Notes: generated from the sequence alone by a model not told the origin. A stretch of DNA of 47,057 nt from an uncultured Caulobacterales bacterium (GCA_937965735.1 CALCKU010000124.1:1-47057); one strand, 5' to 3'. Counted from the stretch's first letter, positions 12,592 through 32,838 are shown. Translations and numbers: made by a program.

Positions 12592-13206
12592 ATGAAACTC
12601 TTTGCGGCAATTCCTATATCTGATCGTGTTAGCGGCGATGTTACCCGCCTACAAAAAGGCGTTTCTGGGGCACGCTGGGTTGCCCGTGAAAAATTTCATA
12701 TCACGCTTGGTTTTTTTGGTGAAGTCTCAGACGATATGGCTGAAGTGCTGGATATGGAACTCGGGCGTGCATATTTCCCCGCCTTCGAGCTACAGCTATC
12801 AGGCGTAGGACATTTTCGTTCCAACCCGCCTGTATCGCTTTGGGCGGGTGTAAAGCCTGTCGAACACATAGCGTACCGCGCCCCGAATGTTCAGTCACGC
12901 CCACTCAGCACACAAGCGAAGCCACTGATTGATTTGCATAAATTTATAAAAAAGGCCGCACGAAAAGCTTCTATAGAAATGGAAAGACGGGATTTTCGTC
13001 CCCATTTAACCCTAGCGTATTTATCCCGCGACACGCCATTAGACCGTATTATTGCCTTTAAAACGGCGCATGCGCGCTATACATCCGCACGGTTTTTAGT
13101 CGATCGGTTTTATCTTTATTCAAGCACGCCTCACCATAACCGCCCGAACACTTATCGGATTGAAGCCCGCTATCCACTTTTGGCACCGCAAAAACGAACC
13201 CAATAA
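12592..13206 (+). CDS. thpR: ThpR, RNA 2',3'-cyclic phosphodiesterase (LigT family)
   Basis: Both signature HxTx motifs of the 2H phosphoesterase superfamily are present: H36-I-T-L (EKFHITLGFFG) and H138-L-T-L (FRPHLTLAYLS). The length, 204 residues, is slightly above the usual 175-190 because of an insertion around residues 92-108. The enzyme opens 2',3'-cyclic phosphates at RNA ends; the E. coli homologue was first described as a 2'-5' RNA ligase. The start is the ATG giving MKLFAAIP, the conserved first beta strand. An AAAGG lies about 20 nt upstream, so initiation signals are weak. No partner gene is evident. Confidence 0.93.
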   Translation: MKLFAAIPISDRVSGDVTRLQKGVSGARWVAREKFHITLGFFGEVSDDMAEVLDMELGRAYFPAFELQLSGVGHFRSNPPVSLWAGVKPVEHIAYRAPNVQSRPLSTQAKPLIDLHKFIKKAARKASIEMERRDFRPHLTLAYLSRDTPLDRIIAFKTAHARYTSARFLVDRFYLYSSTPHHNRPNTYRIEARYPLLAPQKRTQ

Positions 13207-13254
13207 AACAACTCAGATAAGAGACCCTTAATCAGTTTATCTTAGAGGGTAGCG

Positions 13255-13476
13255 ATGATCTTGTATTCAAATCTTGGCTCAAAAAGCCTCAAATTCGTGG
13301 CTATTTTTATAAGCGCAGTCATTTTAACGACCTCTGGGCCGCTTATATTCACGGACAGCTTTTCATTAGACCCTTTTTTGGAAAATAACGCTTTCGGACA
13401 CGCTCAAACACACCCAAAAACGGGCATCAGACCCAATTCTTCCTTAAATTATTTATATAATGCGCACGTGATATAA
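13255..13476 (+). CDS. Possible small exported protein
   Basis: A 73-residue frame with a hydrophobic segment (about residues 14-32, FVAIFISAVILTTSG) resembling a signal peptide or single membrane helix, then a polar tail. GAGGGT lies 4 nt before the ATG, inside the right arm of a weak hairpin (ACCCT 13224-13228 with AGGGT 13246-13250). If real, that could mask the ribosome site. I recognise no family. It may be a chance frame in the gap between thpR and the ParB-like gene. Confidence 0.35.
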   Translation: MILYSNLGSKSLKFVAIFISAVILTTSGPLIFTDSFSLDPFLENNAFGHAQTHPKTGIRPNSSLNYLYNAHVI

Positions 13477-13495
13477 CAGACATTCAAAACATATA

Positions 13496-13522
13496 GGCCG
13501 GAATCTGGGAAGGATTCCGGCC
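13496..13522. terminator. 10-bp perfect hairpin, first of two related copies
   Basis: GGCCGGAATC (13496-13505) and GATTCCGGCC (13513-13522) form a perfect stem around a 7-nt loop. The core AATCTGGGAAGGATT recurs at about 13541-13555, where the flanks pair only imperfectly. The pair lies downstream of the ParB-like gene, which ends at 13610, and of the small plus-strand frame. A terminator is likely, though no long T-run follows. Confidence 0.55.
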
Positions 13523-13609
13523 TTAGGTATGATGAGACCCAATCTGGGAAGGATTTGAGCCTCATTTATTTGACAGAGGGAAAGCGCTGATACCGTTAAG
13601 GGATTGGGA

Positions 13610-14329
13610 TCAGGCTGCGACCGTTTTCGTTGAAAACCGGACTTGGGTAGAACTGTCAAATTCAGAGTGGCTGGGCGCGCGCGACGGCAAGATAACAATT
13701 TCACCGTCGGGTAAATCAATAACCGTTTCACCAGCGCGTATTGCCTGAAGGACTTTCGTGTCTGATACAAATGGGCCTAATTGCAGAAGAAGATTCCACT
13801 GCGCTTTAGGGTTTGAGAGTGTGGCTAAGGCGGCAGCTTGCTCTAGACTGATCGTACCATCATAAAAGGCTTTCAAGACTTTGGCATGCAGTCTAGGCAA
13901 TTTTATACAGCTCTCTACAACGGATATATCACAATCAAAAGTCTGCGCGATATAAGGCAAAGGCATGCTTTTTCGGACATGGGATAGGATTAAATGCGCA
14001 AGCTCGGCATCTTTCAAAAGAGCAGGGCGATCCGCTTCAACGACTTCGGATACCGCTTTTGGAAATAAATTATCAATAACACACGGGATTTTTGTCAGTA
14101 TCTGGCCCGTATAGCCAGATTTTGCCAAGGTTTTTAGCACTTGAAGGCGCTTCTTACCATCGAGTATCGAAAAACCTTTTTTATGCGGCGTCACCCGTAA
14201 AGGATTCAGAAGCCCGTTCGAAACAATACTCTGTCTAAGATTATCATGCTTGTGACGCATGCGTGATTTGAATTGCAACACGCTTGTATCAAAAGATAGC
14301 TTATTTAGGGGAATGTAGACTATGTGCAT
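13610..14329 (-). CDS. Lone ParB-domain DNA-binding protein
   Basis: The 239-residue protein begins with a ParB/Srx-like N-terminal domain: RQSIVSNGLLNPLRVTP near residue 32 and LDGKKRLQVLK near 57, corresponding to the DGERR-type motif of ParB. A helix-turn-helix region follows around residues 115-160 (LPYIAQTFDCDISVVESCIK). The C-terminus lacks an evident ParB dimerisation domain. No parA is adjacent, so this is not a standard partition pair. Relatives act in plasmid partition, as RepB-like proteins or as transcription factors. A perfect 9-bp inverted repeat lies 27 nt before the start and may be its own operator. Not the chromosomal ParB, in my view. Confidence 0.8.
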   Translation of the reverse strand: MHIVYIPLNKLSFDTSVLQFKSRMRHKHDNLRQSIVSNGLLNPLRVTPHKKGFSILDGKKRLQVLKTLAKSGYTGQILTKIPCVIDNLFPKAVSEVVEADRPALLKDAELAHLILSHVRKSMPLPYIAQTFDCDISVVESCIKLPRLHAKVLKAFYDGTISLEQAAALATLSNPKAQWNLLLQLGPFVSDTKVLQAIRAGETVIDLPDGEIVILPSRAPSHSEFDSSTQVRFSTKTVAA

Positions 14330-14355
14330 AATGCCTCAAAACGTTAAAGGCGTTC

Positions 14356-14395
14356 CTGACTATGTATATGAACAATTCAAAAGTTGCATAGTCAG
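14356..14395. promoter_or_regulatory. 9-bp inverted repeat in front of the ParB-like gene
   Basis: CTGACTATG (14356-14364) and CATAGTCAG (14387-14395) are perfect inverted arms separated by 22 nt, 27 nt upstream of the minus-strand ATG. It could be an operator for autoregulation, a ParB-type binding site or a 5'-leader hairpin. It does not resemble the conserved chromosomal parS sequence. Confidence 0.5.
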
Positions 14396-14463
14396 TTCAA
14401 CCGTCTACAGTGTGATTGACACAGCAAAGATGAACAAAGTCAGAGTAAAAATTCAAACAAATA

Positions 14464-14479
14464 GTTAATTTTGGTTAAC
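14464..14479. promoter_or_regulatory. Dyad GTTAA-N6-TTAAC, copy 1
   Basis: The sequence is GTTAATTTTGGTTAAC. The five-base arms are perfectly inverted with a six-base spacer. Very similar sequences occur at 14560, 18714 (as its complement) and 17976 (one arm mismatch), all within this island. Confidence 0.6.
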
Positions 14480-14510
14480 GAAATCATCAAATTTATGGGA
14501 TTACAGCGAT

Positions 14511-14519
14511 TTATCCACA
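14511..14519 (+). promoter_or_regulatory. DnaA-box match
   Basis: TTATCCACA is an exact match to the consensus DnaA box. ATTTCCACA at 14532-14540 is a near match in the same orientation, 12 nt further on. Both lie between the two 16-bp dyads. A single exact match in AT-rich DNA can be chance. Confidence 0.45.
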
Positions 14520-14559
14520 TTTTACGGGATAATTTCCACAGACGAAAACGCATGAAATC

Positions 14560-14575
14560 GTTAATTTCTGTTAAC
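14560..14575. promoter_or_regulatory. Dyad GTTAA-N6-TTAAC, copy 2
   Basis: The sequence is GTTAATTTCTGTTAAC, identical to copy 1 at 14 of 16 positions, 96 bp away in the same orientation and 166 bp before the ATG of the first paralog. Confidence 0.6.
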
Positions 14576-14740
14576 CATTTTATAGTAAATACACTGTTAA
14601 TTGTTCATGCAAAGCCCTATTTTTTGTTTTATAAAGCCCCTGAACACTGAATTAATATTAATAAGTGGTTTTATTAAGATTGTAATTTTTTTAATACATT
14701 CAAATTATACTCTCCTTAAATAACGTTTGAAAGATGTATA

Positions 14741-15253
14741 ATGGTTATTGCAAAAGAACAGTCTAAAAATACGGTTAGGCAGGGAGTGAAACATTTTTCT
14801 GAAGTGAAACATTTTCCTGCGCACAAATGGCATAATATTTTTCAACTCTTGGGTTTAATGGTTGTAGCCAATGGTCGTGTCTTCCCTGAAGATATAAAAG
14901 CCTATCTCAATAGCGTTATGGAGCTCTCTGTTGTCGTTGACCCATCTGTTGTGATTACTAAGCAAATGGCAAAAGACTGGTTTTTAATCAATAAAGCCGA
15001 TTTAATCGATATTGTGAATGGTTTAGCTTACGACACCGCTATTCTTAGCATTTTAAGTGAGATCAAATCATTCCCGCACAAGCTTGATGTAATTACCTGC
15101 ATGGTTAATATTGCGATTGCGGATGAGGATTACGGCGATATGGAAAAAATGTTTATCAAAAAAACGATCTTATACTGGAATATCCGCTCCAGTATGAATA
15201 ACGATTCCGCTATCCAGTCCACAATAGCCAATAATGATGTTGAGTATTCTTAA
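14741..15253 (+). CDS. Unknown protein, paralog 1 of the signalling island (TerB-like?)
   Basis: The 170-residue protein has no signal peptide or membrane segment and looks all-helical. Residues about 30-131 align without any gap to the protein at 18057-18467: W, then LLGL, then a Pro 29 residues later, T, ADWF-like A-x-DWF, N, L, Y, SxxL, PxK and a final D are shared, about 23 identities in 102. The second half (FPHKLDVITCMVNIAIADED) recalls TerB/DjlA-type helical domains, where a similar run ends in an acidic metal-binding segment, but this is weak. The gene is divergent from the ParB-like gene and convergent with the histidine kinase. Sampled GC is 37%. Function unknown; a partner of the adjacent phosphorelay is inferred from position. 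Confidence 0.8.
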   Translation: MVIAKEQSKNTVRQGVKHFSEVKHFPAHKWHNIFQLLGLMVVANGRVFPEDIKAYLNSVMELSVVVDPSVVITKQMAKDWFLINKADLIDIVNGLAYDTAILSILSEIKSFPHKLDVITCMVNIAIADEDYGDMEKMFIKKTILYWNIRSSMNNDSAIQSTIANNDVEYS

Positions 15254-15328
15254 GACCTGACGAAACACCTTACTGCCGGTCCAATGTAAGTTAGCGAAGG
15301 CAGCGCTAGCGAAATAATCTTAATCCGT

Positions 15329-16576
15329 TTAAGCCTGAACATCCTGTAGCGGCAAGCTTATACACATATGTGTACCTGTCTTTCGCCCTCTGTCATAGTC
15401 CAACGTCCACCCATGCTTTTCACAAATCCGTCTCGCTTTTGTCAGACCCAGACCAATGCCCGGATAAAGCCTTTTGTCATTCAGGCGCGTAAACGCTTTA
15501 AATACATCAGAACTCGAATGCCCATCAATGCCAATACCAGCATCTATAATATCAATATGTGCGTGATGATCGGTATAGCGCGTTATAATATGAATCGATG
15601 ATAGGCTGTCTTTATCTGAGAATTTAAAACTATTGTCTAAAAGTGCGTAAAGTAATGCTTTTAAACTGTCTGTGTCGGCCTGAACATTTTTGAACGCAAA
15701 AACATCCATACGTTCTTTTTGAATGTGGGTTTCGCTCGGAGAATATTTCACAAAGAGCGCATTCAATATCGGCGTCACGACATCAGCAAGGGCCGTATTT
15801 TCACGCTGAACCGGCTTTGCCACCTCAGTCGAAAATTGAATGAGACTGGCGATCAAATAACCCAGACTATCGGCGGAATCGTTTAACGCTCCAAGAAAAA
15901 AGTGGGTATCCTCCGATAAATCTTCCGCAGGCTCCATATTTATAAATTCGGCACTTTGTTTAATCTTTCGAATGGGCGCTTGAATGTCATGCTCTGCCAA
16001 TAAGGCGAACGTCTCAAAACCTTGTCGCATATATTCAAGTTCAATTTCCTGGCGCGCGCGGGCACGCGATAAATGGTCTATGTATAAAGCTGTCTCTATA
16101 TTAACCATAATATTTCGAAGTAAATGGGACGGCGTTTTCTTACCTGTCTTAACGGTCTTATCTGTTTTGGTGGTCTTGGCATTAACCAGTAGCAAGAAAC
16201 CTAAAGACTGATTATCCCGCGATAATCCCAAAGCATAATAGCTATGACCGCTGGTAAGCGCTTCAAACCCGCTTTCCTGCACAATTGGAAAATACGGCAA
16301 GCCGTTTGAAACATCCGTTGCACACTTAAAAGCCTCTTTATCAAAACTCTCTTGAATACAATCATCAGGCGCGGTTAGAGGCGTATGTCCCACAGAGTCC
16401 GCGACCCTAAAAACCTTTTCGTTTCGGACTTCAAAAAGATAAGCGGATTGAAAATTATCTGACGCACAAAGCCGCTTTAAATAAGCCGTAAAGCGTTCGG
16501 CGTTTTTCACGGATAAATCCGCTTGAAGCTCTAAATAGGCTTCAACACTTTCAAGACTTAAAGGCGAGGATTTCAT
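15329..16576 (-). CDS. Soluble GAF-like sensor histidine kinase
   Basis: The 415-residue protein has no membrane helix. Residues about 8-135 look like a GAF domain. They are followed by a Lys/Thr-repeat linker (135-148), a coiled region, and the phosphoacceptor helix with EHDIQAP (H196, D197, P201). The ATPase domain shows the N box LLDNSFKF, the G1 box DAGIGIDG and the G2 box GIGLGLTKARRIC. The signal is unknown; the GAF-like fold suggests a small molecule, cofactor or light. There is no fused receiver, so phosphate presumably goes to the two single-domain regulators encoded just upstream on the same strand. 127 bp separate it from the first of these, so they may be co-transcribed. Confidence 0.92.
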   Translation of the reverse strand: MKSSPLSLESVEAYLELQADLSVKNAERFTAYLKRLCASDNFQSAYLFEVRNEKVFRVADSVGHTPLTAPDDCIQESFDKEAFKCATDVSNGLPYFPIVQESGFEALTSGHSYYALGLSRDNQSLGFLLLVNAKTTKTDKTVKTGKKTPSHLLRNIMVNIETALYIDHLSRARARQEIELEYMRQGFETFALLAEHDIQAPIRKIKQSAEFINMEPAEDLSEDTHFFLGALNDSADSLGYLIASLIQFSTEVAKPVQRENTALADVVTPILNALFVKYSPSETHIQKERMDVFAFKNVQADTDSLKALLYALLDNSFKFSDKDSLSSIHIITRYTDHHAHIDIIDAGIGIDGHSSSDVFKAFTRLNDKRLYPGIGLGLTKARRICEKHGWTLDYDRGRKTGTHMCISLPLQDVQA

Positions 16577-16703
16577 GCGTAAACGGTAAGGCCTATGAGA
16601 AAAAGTACAATCGTATTCAGTGTCAAAACATTAAAAAGACTTTGTATGCCTCTATCAAACACTTTGCGCGCCTATCAGATAGCAAGATCAAAACTGGGAG
16701 CGA

Positions 16704-17081
16704 TCAAACGCCAATATCTGGTACATTAAACAAGCCGTCTTGGATTTTTTGGCGCAAGTGATATTTATCAACAACGTCATAAACATCCAGAATTGTTTTA
16801 TCACGCAAATAAGCAGCATCTATAACACTTGAAATCACGACAAAAGGCACATGCTTCGTAACTTCGCGCAGTTCAGGGACGGATTGCTTGGCCGTACGCC
16901 CATTGCTTAATTTATCATCCAGAAGGATCACATCAATGGCAGCCGTCTTCAGAATTCGGATCGCTTTGTCTAAAGTCTCTGCATAATAGAGCAAATAAGG
17001 CTCCTGATAACAATCTTTCAGCATACGCTGTATAAGTCGGTGCTCAACCAGATCATCATCAATAAGTAAAATATTTAACAC
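16704..17081 (-). CDS. Single-domain response regulator A
   Basis: The 125 residues form one receiver domain: acidic cluster D8-D9-D10, phosphoacceptor D55 (VILLDD), Ser84/Ser85 (VVISS) and Lys106 (VVDKYH). The usual MP after the phosphoacceptor is replaced by KLSNG, so the switch loop is atypical. There is no output domain, so it would act by protein contact or as a phosphotransfer intermediate, in the manner of CheY or DivK. The partner kinase is probably the one ending at 15329. It starts with MLNILLIDDD. I see no strong Shine-Dalgarno. Confidence 0.9.
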   Translation of the reverse strand: MLNILLIDDDLVEHRLIQRMLKDCYQEPYLLYYAETLDKAIRILKTAAIDVILLDDKLSNGRTAKQSVPELREVTKHVPFVVISSVIDAAYLRDKTILDVYDVVDKYHLRQKIQDGLFNVPDIGV

Positions 17082-17293
17082 AAATTATCTTAACGCAGTT
17101 TGGGGAGTACGTCTGCAATAAATTCGCCTTAAACGGGAATTTTGTGAAAGAATCCTAAAATAAACTGTGTACAGTTAATTCAAAGTTTTTCGGAGAATTA
17201 AGTTTTGAAATTTGACGACAAGTGCCAACGTTTCTATTCTCTTATAAATGACAATCGCATTATAAATGATGCACGAATAAAATTGTAACTGTG

Positions 17294-17683
17294 CTAACTC
17301 GCAAGCTCTAAATAAGATTCTTTGATACGAGACGCAACATCGCGATATGCCGCAACAGAGTTTGGCTTTGTAAAATAATCCGTGGCCCCTTTTTCTGTAG
17401 CTAAGGCCTTATCAATATCCGCATTTGAACCCGACATGATAATGACTTTTAAATCTTTCAATGATTTCTCGGCTCGGATTTCATCGAGTAAATCAAACCC
17501 ACTCTTACCCGGCATACGGATATCTAACACCGTCAAATCGGGTTGAGTTTCTTTAATGGTCTCAAGCGCAACTTTACCGTGACTGAGCTCTATAAATTCA
17601 AAAGGGGTTCCTACTGTTTTCATAGCGCTAGAAATCATTCTTCGGTCAAAAGCGGAATCATCAATAATTAAAATACGTTTCAT
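17294..17683 (-). CDS. Single-domain response regulator B
   Basis: A 129-residue CheY-like receiver: D8-D9, phosphoacceptor D54 (VLDIRMPGKSG), Ser84 (IIMSGSN) and Lys106 (FTKPNS). I start it at MKRILIID (17683), not at the longer frame to 17749, because the receiver fold begins there and GGAA lies 7 nt upstream. The longer N-terminus adds 22 residues with no family match. There is no output domain. A TTAA-N7-TTAA element lies about 70 bp upstream. It could share a phosphate source with regulator A, giving a branched or sink-type relay. Confidence 0.92.
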   Translation of the reverse strand: MKRILIIDDSAFDRRMISSAMKTVGTPFEFIELSHGKVALETIKETQPDLTVLDIRMPGKSGFDLLDEIRAEKSLKDLKVIIMSGSNADIDKALATEKGATDYFTKPNSVAAYRDVASRIKESYLELAS

Positions 17684-17750
17684 TTTAAGTTCCATAGGGA
17701 GCCCATCAGAACAATTTGCGCCCTTAAATAACCCAACTGGGAAATACACC

Positions 17751-17765
17751 TTAACATAAACTTAA
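17751..17765. promoter_or_regulatory. CtrA-like box TTAA-N7-TTAA
   Basis: TTAACATAAACTTAA matches the TTAA-N7-TTAA consensus of the alphaproteobacterial cell-cycle regulator CtrA. It lies about 70 bp upstream of response regulator B. The region is AT-rich, so a chance match is quite possible. Confidence 0.35.
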
Positions 17766-17975
17766 TATTTAAGATAGTTAAATATTAAATATTAAAGATT
17801 AAAAGTACAACCAATATTCATACCCTATACCCACGTTGACAGGCACATATCTACGCTTGCCTTGTCTCTTCTTCTTTGCTTTTCAAGCGAGAAACAAAGC
17901 GCCTCTTTGAAACGCAAATGGGAGCACAAACTGAAAACAAAAACCGAAAACAAAGTTAAAATATGAAAAAAAGTT

Positions 17976-17991
17976 TTTAACTAAAGTTAAC
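17976..17991. promoter_or_regulatory. Near copy of the island dyad
   Basis: TTTAACTAAAGTTAAC has nine of ten arm positions of GTTAA-N6-TTAAC and ends 65 bp before the ATG of paralog 2. Its position matches a promoter-proximal operator better than the other copies do. Confidence 0.45.
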
Positions 17992-18056
17992 ACTCCGTAT
18001 ACACATAAACGTTAAAGTTGGGATGCGACGTCATTAAATTTCCGATTGGAATACTT

Positions 18057-18467
18057 ATGAATGCACAAAACTGGAATGATTCTTTAACCCTTCTGGGCCT
18101 GATTATAATGGACGAGCCTCTGTCTCGGCATGAGAAAATTGAGCGTTTTAAAAACGCGGCCGTTAATTTTAAACAACGCGTCAGTCCAAATTTCACACTG
18201 ACGGAAGACAATGCCGAAGACTGGTTTATTCAAAATGAACCGCATCTTCGTAAGAATATGAGCTCTATATATTATGAGAGCCATTTAAAATCGGTTTTAA
18301 ACAATCTCAATGCACTGCCTGATAAATCGGCTTTTTTATTTTCTTTATTGAAAGTCTCGCTTTCCGATCAGCACAATGCCGATGTCACGAACCCAAATGT
18401 GTATCGCTTTATTGAGAAAGCAGAAGACTGTTGGGGCCTTCCAACAACGCAATCCTCAAAACGATAA
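18057..18467 (+). CDS. Unknown protein, paralog 2 of the signalling island
   Basis: This is a 136-residue helical protein with no signal or membrane segment. It aligns colinearly, without gaps, to residues about 30-131 of the protein at 14741-15253. Shared landmarks are NW near the start, LLGL, VSP, LT-x4-A-x-DWF, N, L, Y, PDK and SD. I place the start at the ATG at 18057 (GGA 7-10 nt upstream), not at the TTG 39 nt earlier. The N-terminal 27 residues of paralog 1 are missing here. It is divergent from response regulator B. A role in the kinase/regulator pathway is inferred only from position and from the shared dyad in its upstream region. Confidence 0.78.
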   Translation: MNAQNWNDSLTLLGLIIMDEPLSRHEKIERFKNAAVNFKQRVSPNFTLTEDNAEDWFIQNEPHLRKNMSSIYYESHLKSVLNNLNALPDKSAFLFSLLKVSLSDQHNADVTNPNVYRFIEKAEDCWGLPTTQSSKR

Positions 18468-18515
18468 TCTCTGTAAGACAATCAAAACGTCTGCTTAAAT
18501 CAAGCGAGATATAAA

Positions 18516-18556
18516 CCTTGCACAATTAACCGATGACAGGGTTATATCGTGCAAGG
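18516..18556. repeat. Inverted repeat behind paralog 2
   Basis: CCTTGCAC at 18516-18523 is the exact complement of GTGCAAGG at 18549-18556. AACC (18528-18531 region) and GGTT (18540-18543) extend the stem after a mismatch. It begins 48 nt after the paralog 2 stop. The lack of a T-run argues against a simple terminator. Confidence 0.5.
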
Positions 18557-18713
18557 CAAAAGATTCTGATTCCCGTCTTCTTGTTATAAGAGCGTTCAGG
18601 AACCCCCACTTTTTATGAGATTTGCAAATCTACGCCGCATAATCTCGTCACCACTAATTTATAGTAGTGGGCTATTAAGACTGAATAGAATATGAGCGTT
18701 TTACGGTAAAAGC

Positions 18714-18729
18714 GTTAAACCAAATTAAC
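18714..18729. promoter_or_regulatory. Dyad GTTAA-N6-TTAAC, copy 3
   Basis: GTTAAACCAAATTAAC has perfect arms. Its reverse complement, GTTAATTTGGTTTAAC, shares the GTTAATTT start with copies 1 and 2. It lies 247 bp behind paralog 2 and 366 bp before the YceI gene. Confidence 0.5.
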
Positions 18730-19095
18730 CCAAATAAGATAATCTGAATCAGGTTACCCATATAAGGCTATCTAAGCTCAAGATAAATTTGCTCAAGCTG
18801 AATCTTAAACGATTTCACAGGCGCATTGAGCCTAGGCTAAACAGATAAAATTCTAATTCAGATTGATTTCAAAAAAGTCTGAAATGGGTCTGGAAAGCGG
18901 AGCTAGACAAACTTGAAAAACCCGCACTCTCAACGCATAACGACATAATCACCCGCATCTAATCTCTTCAATATTTTTTTCGAAACGATTTCGGGAATAT
19001 TTAATGCGAGACGGGTGTTCATGGTATACACAATCATTCTGTTGCAAAAACGATGAGAGTCACGAATAAATTTATCTTCACTTCAAGGATTTCCT

Positions 19096-19845
19096 ATGAC
19101 CCGATGCCTACAATCCGAATACATAAAATTTCAACCGTTTTATAAAACGCTTTCTCGTTTTGCTTGTCGCTTCAGTTTGTCCTGTTTTGCTGGTATTGCC
19201 TGTCTTGCAACCGTATCACTCGCGGCTTGCGGTCCAATAGAGGCGGCGAATACCGCCGCGACCGACACCGCAACGGTTCAGCCTTCCTCAAGTCAAGCGG
19301 ATATTCGTGAAGCCGTTAGCGGTACTTATATCGGCGATCCAAGTCATACCTATGTCGGACTGACCTATATGCACCAAGGCTATGCGCGCGCGACTCTGCG
19401 TGTGGATAATGTTGCCATTAATTTAGCATTTGAGCGTGAAAAACCCGAAGACGCTAAGCTCACGGTTATGATGAAAGCCACAAATATCAATACGGGCACA
19501 AAGAAATTTGATATACACTTAATGAGTGCCGATTTCTTTGATGCAGAGAATTATCCAGATATAAGCTTTACCAGCACATCCATGACGATGAAGACCCCTT
19601 CAACAGGTACGATCACGGGTGAGTTAACGATTAAGGATATTACAAAACCCCTTACGCTTGATGTGACGTTAAATAAAGTTGGTCAGCATTTCCGAAGCAA
19701 AGCCGATATGATTGGCATTTCGGCCTCTGGAGAATTAAGCCGTACAGAATGGGGGCTAGGGAAATACGCACCAACCGTTAGCGATAAGGTCACGCTGACA
19801 ATCGAAGCCGAGCTTGCCATTCCCGTTGAATCTAAAACGGAATAG
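19096..19845 (+). CDS. YceI-family lipoprotein
   Basis: The N-terminus ends in a lipobox (SLAAC, Cys45) after a hydrophobic stretch, so the protein should be lipid-anchored in the envelope. The signal region is long; a later start is possible but none has a better ribosome site, and AAGGA lies 8-9 nt before this ATG. Residues about 72-245 form the YceI lipocalin-like barrel: DPSHTYVGLTYMHQGYAR, DFFDAENYPDISFTST, GELTIKDITKPLTLDV and the ending KVTLTIEAEL. YceI proteins bind isoprenoid-type lipids. Specific ligand unknown. It is a single gene, followed by a 13-bp hairpin. Confidence 0.92.
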   Translation: MTRCLQSEYIKFQPFYKTLSRFACRFSLSCFAGIACLATVSLAACGPIEAANTAATDTATVQPSSSQADIREAVSGTYIGDPSHTYVGLTYMHQGYARATLRVDNVAINLAFEREKPEDAKLTVMMKATNINTGTKKFDIHLMSADFFDAENYPDISFTSTSMTMKTPSTGTITGELTIKDITKPLTLDVTLNKVGQHFRSKADMIGISASGELSRTEWGLGKYAPTVSDKVTLTIEAELAIPVESKTE

Positions 19846-30144: not shown

Positions 30145-30379
30145 AAGTTTTAATAACAGTGCAAAGAGGTCCGCGCAAGCACAGGAACCCTGACAAAGTG
30201 CACTCTATGGATAGGTAAATTAGCGCGCAAAAGACGCCGCCTCTTTCATACGAACTCTTTAAAAATAAATACAGATTTCGTTTCGCAAATATATTGTGAA
30301 ACTTTCATTCGCCATTAACCCTGACTCTGTAGCTTAGAAGTGTGTGAAAGGCTGGGTTTATACACCTATAGGATGTTTT

Positions 30380-30895
30380 ATGTTAAGCAGAGCGTATAAA
30401 GATTATGGTTATTTGTCCCACACAGAGTGGGTATCGAATGATTATTCAGAATTCATCAAAAATGCGATCCTGCCAAGTTTCCATAAGCGTTATCCCTTGA
30501 AATTACGTGAATTGCGGATGTTATTGACTATTTTTGAGTTTAACGCCTCTAAAACACCGGGCGAAGTGGCCCAATATCTGCGCCAAGATCCCGCGACGAT
30601 CACGCGTTGCATGGTATCCTTAATTGGCAATGGCTATATGGTGTCCAAAGAAAACTTTAATGACGGGCGCAGTCGTTTACTGGCCGTGACCGAAAAAGGT
30701 GACGAAGCTGGCCAGTATTTTTTTGAATTATTTGAAATCGCAATGTCAACACTCCCTGAAGCCCCCGAAAGAACAGAATCTGATACAGATATTATGCAAG
30801 CTTTAGAAACGCTCACCCACCGAACTGAAATTTTGCATAAGCGCAAAAAACAAATATCTTCGCATTTACAAACCCATAGCGCGCGTACACAGTGA
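30380..30895 (+). CDS. MarR-type winged-helix regulator
   Basis: The 171-residue protein has the MarR-type winged helix at about residues 35-115: LKLRELRMLLTIFEF, TPGEVAQYLRQDPATITRCM (recognition helix) and the wing NFNDGRSRLLAVTEKG. I take the ATG at 30380, with AGGA 6 nt upstream, not the GTG 36 nt earlier. It lies 22 bp before the response regulator gene, so it is probably the first gene of a three-gene sensory operon. It may regulate that operon or the divergent rpe. Ligand unknown. Confidence 0.88.
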   Translation: MLSRAYKDYGYLSHTEWVSNDYSEFIKNAILPSFHKRYPLKLRELRMLLTIFEFNASKTPGEVAQYLRQDPATITRCMVSLIGNGYMVSKENFNDGRSRLLAVTEKGDEAGQYFFELFEIAMSTLPEAPERTESDTDIMQALETLTHRTEILHKRKKQISSHLQTHSARTQ

Positions 30896-30917
30896 GCGCG
30901 CTAAAAGAGATCTTATA

Positions 30918-31343
30918 ATGTCCGAAGTCAAACACCCCATCAAATTCCTGATCGTCGAAGATGACGATGTCGATATGATGAGTATTAAACGCGCCTTTAA
31001 ACATATACGCCTTAACAACCCTGTAGTGCGAGCCAAAGATGGCCGCGAGGCCATAGACTTACTGCACAATACAGACAATGAAAGCCGACTTTCATCGCCC
31101 TATATAATTTTTCTAGATTTGAATATGCCGCGTATGAACGGTTTAGAATTCTTAAAGGTTTTACGCGGCGATCCTCGTACGGAACACGCTCGGGTTTTTG
31201 TTTTAACAACTTCGGAAACAGACGAAGATATTATCAATGCTCATGCTTTTGATATTTTGGGATATATTTTTAAATCCGATCTAATGGGCAGTTTAAGTGA
31301 AGCGATCACTGCGCTTGAAGAGGATTGGGTACTCCTCGCATGA
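30918..31343 (+). CDS. Rcp1-like single-domain response regulator
   Basis: A 141-residue receiver domain of the Rcp1 type: E14-D15-D16-D17 cluster, phosphoacceptor D67 (IFLDLNMPRMNG), Thr97 (FVLTTSE) and Lys119 (YIFKSD). The long alpha2-beta3 insert NTDNESRLSSPYI is typical of regulators paired with phytochrome-like or PilJ-type kinases. There is no output domain. It lies 22 bp after the MarR gene and 44 bp before the kinase gene, so it is the likely cognate regulator of that kinase. Confidence 0.93.
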   Translation: MSEVKHPIKFLIVEDDDVDMMSIKRAFKHIRLNNPVVRAKDGREAIDLLHNTDNESRLSSPYIIFLDLNMPRMNGLEFLKVLRGDPRTEHARVFVLTTSETDEDIINAHAFDILGYIFKSDLMGSLSEAITALEEDWVLLA

Positions 31344-31386
31344 TAAACACACCCACGCCGCTTATACAGTATTTTTAGGCTGAGCT

Positions 31387-32838
31387 GTGCCACCATCCAA
31401 TATTGACGCACTGAAAACAAATATGTCCCATATAGCGCGCCAAAAAAGCTATTGGGCCTTCCTATTATCACCCGATAATCCGCGCGGAATCTGGGTGCGC
31501 TACCTCATTGCGGTTTTACTGATTATCTCAGCCGTTTCTGTAACCCATTTCGCACCCAAAGCCGCGATTCAAGAAATACAAGACAAAGCCGAAGCCATTC
31601 ACCTCAGTGGCCAGCAAGCCATGCTCAGTCAGCGCATATTATTCCTAGGCAGCCATATCGCTCAAAATCCAAACTCTCGCCCAATTTATGCCTCGAAACT
31701 GAAAACGGCGATACGTGATTTTAAGCGTGGCCACACCGCATTGCTTCAGGGGGGAGACTTAGACATCAATAAGCCTTTGCCCGAGAATTTGCGTCGCTAT
31801 TATTTCACACCCCGAAACGGTATGACTCTGGATGAGCGCATTCAAAAATTTGCGCAAGATGCTGACACGATCACTAAAAGCCAAGATGATCTTGTGATTT
31901 CTGAAGCGCTAAAAAGCCTGATTGCTTCGGGGCTGTATTTGCAACTCCAACAATTAGAATCCGCCATGACGGGTTATCAAAATTACACTTTGACTAAAGT
32001 TGATTATATTCAATCTATCGCTCTCCTAAGCTTTTTACTCGCGCTTATTATCTTAATTTTTGAAGCTTGGTTCATCTTCTTGCCAGCCCATCGGTCGATC
32101 ATAAAGGCGCTAGATTCAGCAGAGGCTTATGCGTTTCGATTGGAACAAAACAATGCGGATTTAAATCATTTTGCATATGTCGCTTCGCACGATTTAATGG
32201 CGCCTTTACGGGGTATGTCAAACCTCATCACTTGGGTTAAAGAAGACATGCCTAAGACCGCTTCAAAAGAAGTCGACTCATATTTAGATCTGCTCACAAA
32301 GCGCGTTGATCGTATGGAAGCGCTTCTGAAAGACATTTTAAATTTCTCGCGCGCGGGTAAAGCGCCTGAAGACAGTGTTGATGTCGATGTCATTGCCTTG
32401 ATTGAAGAGCTTAAATCTTGGATTAAAATTCCTGATGGATTTGAGGTAAAAGTGGCAACAGATATACCAATTATCCGCGCCCCACAAACCACATTGCAAC
32501 AATGTTTTTTAAACCTAATTTCCAATGGGATTAAGCACCATGACCGTGATTATGGTCTTGTTGAAGTTCGGTACAAGTCTGAAGCGAATATGCATGTCTT
32601 TCACATTGAGGATGACGGACCGGGCATTCCACCCGATTATCACACATATGTTTTTGAAATGTTCAACCGTTTAAAAAGCCGCGACGAAGTCGAAGGCAGC
32701 GGGATCGGCCTTGCCATTATCAAGCGCATGACAGAAACAATTGGTGGGACAATCCAGCTTGAACCCAAACCCGTTCAGGATGAACGCGGCACCTGTTTTA
32801 TTTTGAAGCTACCCAAAACATTATCAAGCCCGTCATAA
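31387..32838 (+). CDS. Membrane histidine kinase with PilJ-type sensor domain
   Basis: Membrane helices at about residues 36-52 and 208-232 flank an extracytoplasmic all-helical domain. It contains SGQQAMLSQRI (74-84), the signature of the PilJ-type/methyl-accepting N-terminal sensor. The kinase core has ASHDLMAPLRG (H268, D269, P273), N box LISNGIKHHD, G1 EDDGPGIP and G2 GSGIGLAIIKR, and FEMFNRL between them as the F box. The GTG start at 31387 is taken by default; an ATG 36 nt later is possible and neither has a strong Shine-Dalgarno. Related PilJ-like sensors respond to nitrate or nitrite in NarX-like proteins; the signal here is unknown. Confidence 0.92.
   Translation: MPPSNIDALKTNMSHIARQKSYWAFLLSPDNPRGIWVRYLIAVLLIISAVSVTHFAPKAAIQEIQDKAEAIHLSGQQAMLSQRILFLGSHIAQNPNSRPIYASKLKTAIRDFKRGHTALLQGGDLDINKPLPENLRRYYFTPRNGMTLDERIQKFAQDADTITKSQDDLVISEALKSLIASGLYLQLQQLESAMTGYQNYTLTKVDYIQSIALLSFLLALIILIFEAWFIFLPAHRSIIKALDSAEAYAFRLEQNNADLNHFAYVASHDLMAPLRGMSNLITWVKEDMPKTASKEVDSYLDLLTKRVDRMEALLKDILNFSRAGKAPEDSVDVDVIALIEELKSWIKIPDGFEVKVATDIPIIRAPQTTLQQCFLNLISNGIKHHDRDYGLVEVRYKSEANMHVFHIEDDGPGIPPDYHTYVFEMFNRLKSRDEVEGSGIGLAIIKRMTETIGGTIQLEPKPVQDERGTCFILKLPKTLSSPS

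Follow-up and report, generated by a model that had tools for sequence, protein, structure and literature searches.

Site-specific control of DNA by ParB-family proteins has been described for KorB (PMC11790492) and VirB (PMC10770331), which, like Noc, combine the ParB nucleotide fold with an HTH, act as regulators and need no role for ParA. Control of a DNA-binding protein by a single-domain receiver is exemplified by the CckA-ChpT-CpdR/CtrA pathway, where CpdR governs protein stability through ClpXP; in Caulobacter, the proteolysis of CtrA requires its C-terminal alanines, and both CpdR and RcdA take part in it (PMC4433202, PMC8138137). DjlA, a modulator of the E. coli Rcs phosphorelay (PMC11709261), carries a TerB-like domain.

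Here, we describe a locus (positions 13610-18729) within a 47,057-nt stretch of DNA, hereafter the window, from an uncultured Caulobacterales bacterium (GCA_937965735.1, CALCKU010000124.1:1-47057), in which a ParB-like gene, two TerB-like genes, a histidine kinase gene and two single-domain receiver genes stand together. Its ParB-like protein shares the ParB nucleotide fold and HTH with KorB, VirB and Noc, but these are not tied to two-component genes, whereas the family described here is shorter, ends in -AA and is associated with a different palindrome. The CtrA pathway differs in that CtrA is itself a response regulator, while the DNA-binding protein here is of the ParB type and the cassette contains no HPt protein that we could find. 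The TerB-like proteins resemble the TerB family (PF05099; COG3793; the TerB domain of DjlA) in fold and sequence, yet no ter operon was seen among their scanned neighbours, and they have undergone a lineage-specific expansion to 12 copies and occur in HU-TerB fusions. Most cassettes carry a kinase of the known CheB-CheR-PAS type, here joined to ParB-like and TerB-like genes, although the window kinase is short and lacks CheB/CheR, and two cassettes have a phytochrome block beside them that recalls known bacteriophytochrome/heme-oxygenase pairs. Literature searches turned up no description of the kinase-receiver-TerB-ParB combination (a 2012 Ter survey fell outside their scope), and a large survey published in 2025 on the ParB-CTPase fold (PMC12704722) mentions neither TerB nor a response regulator in its text.

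Gene content of the locus

The host is a relative of the Robiginitomaculaceae (Hellea group, Caulobacterales/Maricaulales). The island is AT-rich, with a GC content of 36-42% compared to 45-49% in the surrounding DNA, and Rfam returned no RNA elements across 13000-19500. An earlier note, made from the sequence alone, had named six genes here; all six were confirmed and their positions stood, while the starts of two were revised. The ParB-like gene (13610-14329, minus strand, 239 aa) is separated by a divergent promoter region (14330-14740) from the gene for TerB-like protein 1 (14741-15253, plus strand, 170 aa). There follow, all on the minus strand, the genes for the kinase (15329-16576, 415 aa), REC-B (16704-17081, 125 aa, GTG start) and REC-A (17294-17683, 129 aa), the last with a better start at 17683, the first-listed GTG at 17749 being too far upstream. 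TerB-like protein 2 (136 aa, plus strand) occupies 18057-18467, with ATG 18057 as its best start. Elsewhere in the window, positions 30344-32838 hold a second two-component locus encoding a winged-helix protein, a receiver and a PilJ-type kinase. In another genome, G008, the cassette is adjoined by homologues of the winged-helix and receiver genes (L032:7234-8568).

For the ParB-like protein of the window, Pfam matches to ParB_N and HTH_ParB remained below threshold, but the domains were recognized in 11/11 and 10/11 members of its family, respectively. The motifs GKKR (GxxR P motif) and GLL.PL (Box I-like) are invariant among the 11 sequences, except for a single GLF in G008. The predicted structure is of moderate confidence (pLDDT 73), with ParB, Noc and KorB as the best structural matches (Foldseek E 8e-11; by sequence, E 6e-8). 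Sequence and model together thus point to membership of the ParB family by fold. Motifs linked to the ParB-type CTP switch are retained, and, according to the fold survey (PMC12704722), nucleotide preference is not predictable from sequence. The nucleotide-fold domain and HTH are followed only by a short variable tail, which ends in -VAA in the window protein. The -AA ending is present in 28 of 30 family members, against 6% of the ORFs at the same loci, a frequency at which it is a fairly common protein ending in general. We do not assign the protein to a ParABS partition system: ParA was absent from the Pfam-scanned neighbours of the ParB-like gene, and the ParA-binding motif LG-R/K-GL was not seen in the alignment. 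Elsewhere in the order, no short ParB-like proteins were found, the matches there being to ParB proteins whose open frames span 268-863 aa, most of them >600 aa. A mobile or phage origin was considered and rejected, as plasmids yielded generic ParB matches only (<29% identity among the matches listed), viral contigs contained no TerB-like relative and no tRNA lies within the window.

The two proteins flanking the kinase and receivers had been described as paired members of one unknown family. They do belong to one family (22% identity; E 3e-15 when the two are compared directly, 7.5e-11 when the whole genome is searched), of which contig C4 of the same genome encodes a third, distant copy, but the family has the TerB fold. 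Pfam TerB was matched by 15 of the 19 aligned relatives (best E 3e-7), and one relative (L038) passes Pfam's own cut-off; the match of TerB-like 1 by itself is sub-threshold (E 0.0015). The AlphaFold model has a confident, all-helical core (mean pLDDT 86), and its best PDB match is 2h5n (Foldseek probability 1.00, E 0.08), which we take to be a TerB-like structure; a COG3793 tellurite-resistance structure was matched weakly by sequence. These matches and the model argue for placing the proteins in PF05099. As for a tellurite/Ter stress system, the proteins show no sign of belonging to one: terC, terD and terE were all missing from the Pfam-scanned neighbours, a scan that covered part of the flanking genes. 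The subfamily occurs in 56 of 137 genomes of the bacterial family, with up to 12 copies (10-12 in G093, G072 and G080), whereas no relative was found at E 1e-6 in 288 other alphaproteobacterial genomes. TerB-like 1 is 39-48% identical to most of its cassette counterparts, and the closest counterpart of TerB-like 2 is in G072, adjoining a bacteriophytochrome-linked receiver gene. One copy, at L038, adjoins an aconitase gene, with similar large neighbours at L039-L041.

The window kinase contains HATPase_c (E 3e-16), a weak HisKA match and the expected H196, N315 and D345 G-boxes, and is predicted to be soluble; a GAF-like domain proposed for it earlier was rejected, as Pfam gave no support. REC-A, a canonical receiver, and REC-B, a divergent one, both match Response_reg in Pfam and have no output domain, in agreement with their classification as single-domain response regulators. 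REC-B is the most conserved two-component part, with 57-70% identity across genera and invariant D8, D9, D55, S84 and K106. In contrast, the window kinase is poorly conserved, at only about 25% identity: in most other cassettes the kinase has 1376-1409 aa, one such protein (L034) being scanned as CheB-CheR-PAS-HisKA-HATPase, and short forms are found in H. balneolensis (422 aa) and the window (415 aa). A PADLOC search gave nothing beyond weak matches of a generic kinase or receiver type, and an anti-phage defence system was accordingly rejected.

A cassette shared by five genera

Close orthologues of REC-B, defined by E below 1e-50, are present in 9 of the 137 family genomes, representing five genera, and in all nine, ParB-like and TerB-like genes lie within a few kb. 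In the usual order, REC-A, REC-B, the kinase and, in some cases, REC-C are followed by a TerB-like gene divergent from the ParB-like gene. The window cassette lacks REC-C; in G008, the kinase slot is empty and REC-A is different, and in G093 the contig stops at REC-B. Carriers include Hellea balneolensis DSM 19091, a cultured type strain (NZ_AUAC01000003.1), other Hellea and uncultured relatives, the carriers being Hellea-related stalked marine bacteria. Genes flanking the cassette matched only among members of one genus and never between genera, which implies that the cassette itself is conserved. The arrangement is not due to chance; parts scattered among relatives without a kept neighbourhood, the outcome that would have spoken against the earlier note, were not what we found.

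Across the family, TerB-like genes are present in 33 of 34 genomes with ParB-like genes compared to 56 of 137 overall (Fisher p 1.5e-15, a value inflated by shared ancestry; p 1.6e-4 when counted by genus). Many TerB-like genes nevertheless stand alone, and a ParB-like/TerB-like pair without kinase or receivers exists at L036:8758-10188 (G030); a link to phosphorylation is therefore not obligatory. Other ParB-like paralogues abut kinases or receivers (L105, L119, L117, L121). On one strand of L135:7899-12625 (G091), a kinase, a REC-B-like receiver, a TerB-like protein, two receivers and another kinase are encoded in succession, with no ParB-like gene. A second ParB-like paralogue (L117, L121, L118, L122-L125 and related loci) usually lies between ubiG-like methyltransferase and DUF1178 genes, often with a palindrome, described below, 41-90 bp upstream.

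Three cassettes are adjoined by genes for HU/IHF-TerB fusion proteins (L033:420-1196, L110:3512-4393 and L111:3223-4113), so that in relatives the TerB domain, joined to a DNA-binding one, appears to be tied to DNA. The fusions at L033 and L110 are also beside genes of the heme oxygenase and bacteriophytochrome types, identified by Pfam scan at L033 and, as apparent counterparts, from size and N-terminus at L110. Light is therefore a plausible signal for these two cassettes, a suggestion that does not extend to the window.

A palindrome at the ParB-like and TerB-like promoters

A dyad reported earlier from the intergenic gaps proved to be real and corresponds to GTTAA-N6-TTAAC, extended to GTTAAY-N4-RTTAAC. 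Two exact copies lie in the divergent promoter region, GTTAATTTTGGTTAAC at 14464-14479, a putative operator, and GTTAATTTCTGTTAAC at 14560-14575; the counterpart of the latter in G005 reads GTTAATTCCTGTTAACCATTTTATAGT, against GTTAATTTCTGTTAACCATTTTATAGT in the window. A copy with one mismatch (TTTAACTAAAGTTAAC, 17976-17991) lies between REC-A and TerB-like 2. A further exact GTTAA-N6-TTAAC (GTTAAACCAAATTAAC, 18714-18729) lacks the Y/R positions of the conserved sites and may be background. In the window, four of six matches with at most one mismatch, and all three exact ones, fall in the island.

The palindrome is found within the ParB-like/TerB-like gap of most cassettes, upstream of the cassette TerB-like genes as well. 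Allowing one mismatch and up to 400 bp upstream, it precedes 27 of 39 ParB-like genes but only 37 of 916 other ORFs (p 1e-25), some of the 37 probably being neighbours of ParB-like genes. It also precedes ParB-like paralogues at G000 C79, G012 C6, G066 C48, G072 C42 and G008 C2, where it typically lies 41-90 bp ahead of the start codon, and two close TerB-like paralogues in G093. The G000 paralogue (L120:8549-9241), encoded by the same genome as the window, has an exact copy 84 bp upstream; the genome-search match to it contains an in-frame TAA. The search set no constraint on positions 6 and 11, yet 59 of 60 half-sites (30 sites) have Y/R there, which independently supports the extended motif. 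Where a genome lacks ParB-like genes, the TerB-like genes examined had no palindrome. Upstream of REC-A it is kept only in the window, where it is common to TerB-like 2, and, at one mismatch, in G005; elsewhere it is weak. In the ParB tree, carriers fall in both main clades, with rather different HTH sequences, and a clade of five lacks the palindrome. Within the gaps, the N6 spacing occurs in most (9 observed, 0.55 expected) and N7 in some (5 observed, 0.5 expected). Across nine genomes, exact N6 copies number 1-7 per genome and in total no more than a control pattern; given so few sites and no genome-wide excess, the palindrome is not the site of a global regulator, and a global CtrA-type site was rejected as the main reading.

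Discussion

Of the two outputs proposed earlier, contacts with the flanking proteins or DNA control by the ParB-like factor, the latter is favoured, because the dyad is conserved in, and specific to, ParB-like/TerB-like promoters; the accompanying label of a phosphorelay is unproven, since no HPt protein was found. Our main reading is a context-independent two-component cassette whose receivers act on a self-regulated, probably protease-limited, lone ParB-family output, with the TerB-like proteins as adaptors, and we rate its chances as about even. A histidine kinase, soluble or fused to CheB/CheR, would phosphorylate REC-A, REC-B and, where present, REC-C, and the receivers would then act on the ParB-like protein by protein contacts, with the TerB-like proteins as the most likely intermediaries. 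The ParB-like protein, for its part, would bind GTTAAY-N4-RTTAAC in the divergent promoter shared with the TerB-like gene and so set its own expression and that of its neighbour. Such autoregulation is the simplest reading, as this protein is the obvious DNA-binding candidate in the cassette. By analogy with the C-terminal alanines of CtrA, a Clp-type protease that recognizes the conserved -AA probably keeps the level of the ParB-like protein in check. Against this reading, we count the ParB/TerB pairs without a kinase, the clade without a palindrome, the poorly kept kinase and the empty slot in G008.

The main rival, to our mind somewhat unlikely, is that two adjacent modules work separately, one being an autoregulated ParB-like/TerB-like pair, the other a chemotaxis-like operon of kinase and receivers that is independent of the pair and acts elsewhere by protein contacts, their proximity stemming from shared transfer or co-expression. 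Such a division would account for the pair at L036, for the convergent orientation of the cassette halves, which do not form a single operon, and for a palindrome kept in the ParB/TerB gap but, in most cassettes, missing in front of REC-A. However, order and orientation are retained in five genera despite unrelated flanks, ParB-like paralogues adjoin other kinases and receivers (the four loci named above), and at L135 a TerB-like gene sits inside a run of kinase and receiver genes.

The palindrome could also belong to another regulator. An unlinked transcription factor controlling both genes, with the ParB-like protein serving a different role such as nucleoid organisation, strikes us as distinctly improbable: the scarcity of exact sites in each genome, the N6 spacing with its Y/R flanks and the palindrome-free TerB-like genes inspected in genomes that lack ParB-like genes all speak against it, even though the TTAA-rich sites resemble CtrA boxes (TTAA-N7-TTAA), such boxes are over-represented in some gaps, the palindrome is common to ParB-like proteins with diverse HTHs and one clade lacks it. 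Hardly credible, finally, is that the ParB-like gene is a remnant or part of the partition system of a plasmid or other element, with the rest as passenger. The ParB fold, the AT-rich island and the varying contexts would fit, but neither ParA nor replication genes were found beside the ParB-like gene, plasmid matches stay below 29% identity among those listed, viral contigs yielded no TerB-like relative and one paralogue group keeps, across many genomes, its place between a ubiG-like and a DUF1178 gene.

Returning to the signalling cassette as our preferred reading, a bolder version would have bare receivers control ParB-type loading, clamp state or turnover via TerB-fold adaptors, sometimes HU-fused. 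Light or chemical signals would thereby be recorded in nucleoid or local DNA structure instead of passing through a conventional response-regulator output domain; we consider this version unlikely. The parts are of known kinds and the combination appears to be new; we read it as two-component signalling in which a ParB-type protein takes the place of a conventional output, and it suggests an undescribed route from a bacterial signal to DNA. Because Hellea balneolensis DSM 19091 is in culture, the cassette is open to direct testing. If the main reading holds, it would join single-domain receivers, ParB-type proteins and TerB domains, three parts that no known system is known to combine. It would also offer a role that can be tested for the TerB domain, described so far as being of unknown function, and the few known ParB-family regulators would gain one that is under the control of a signal.
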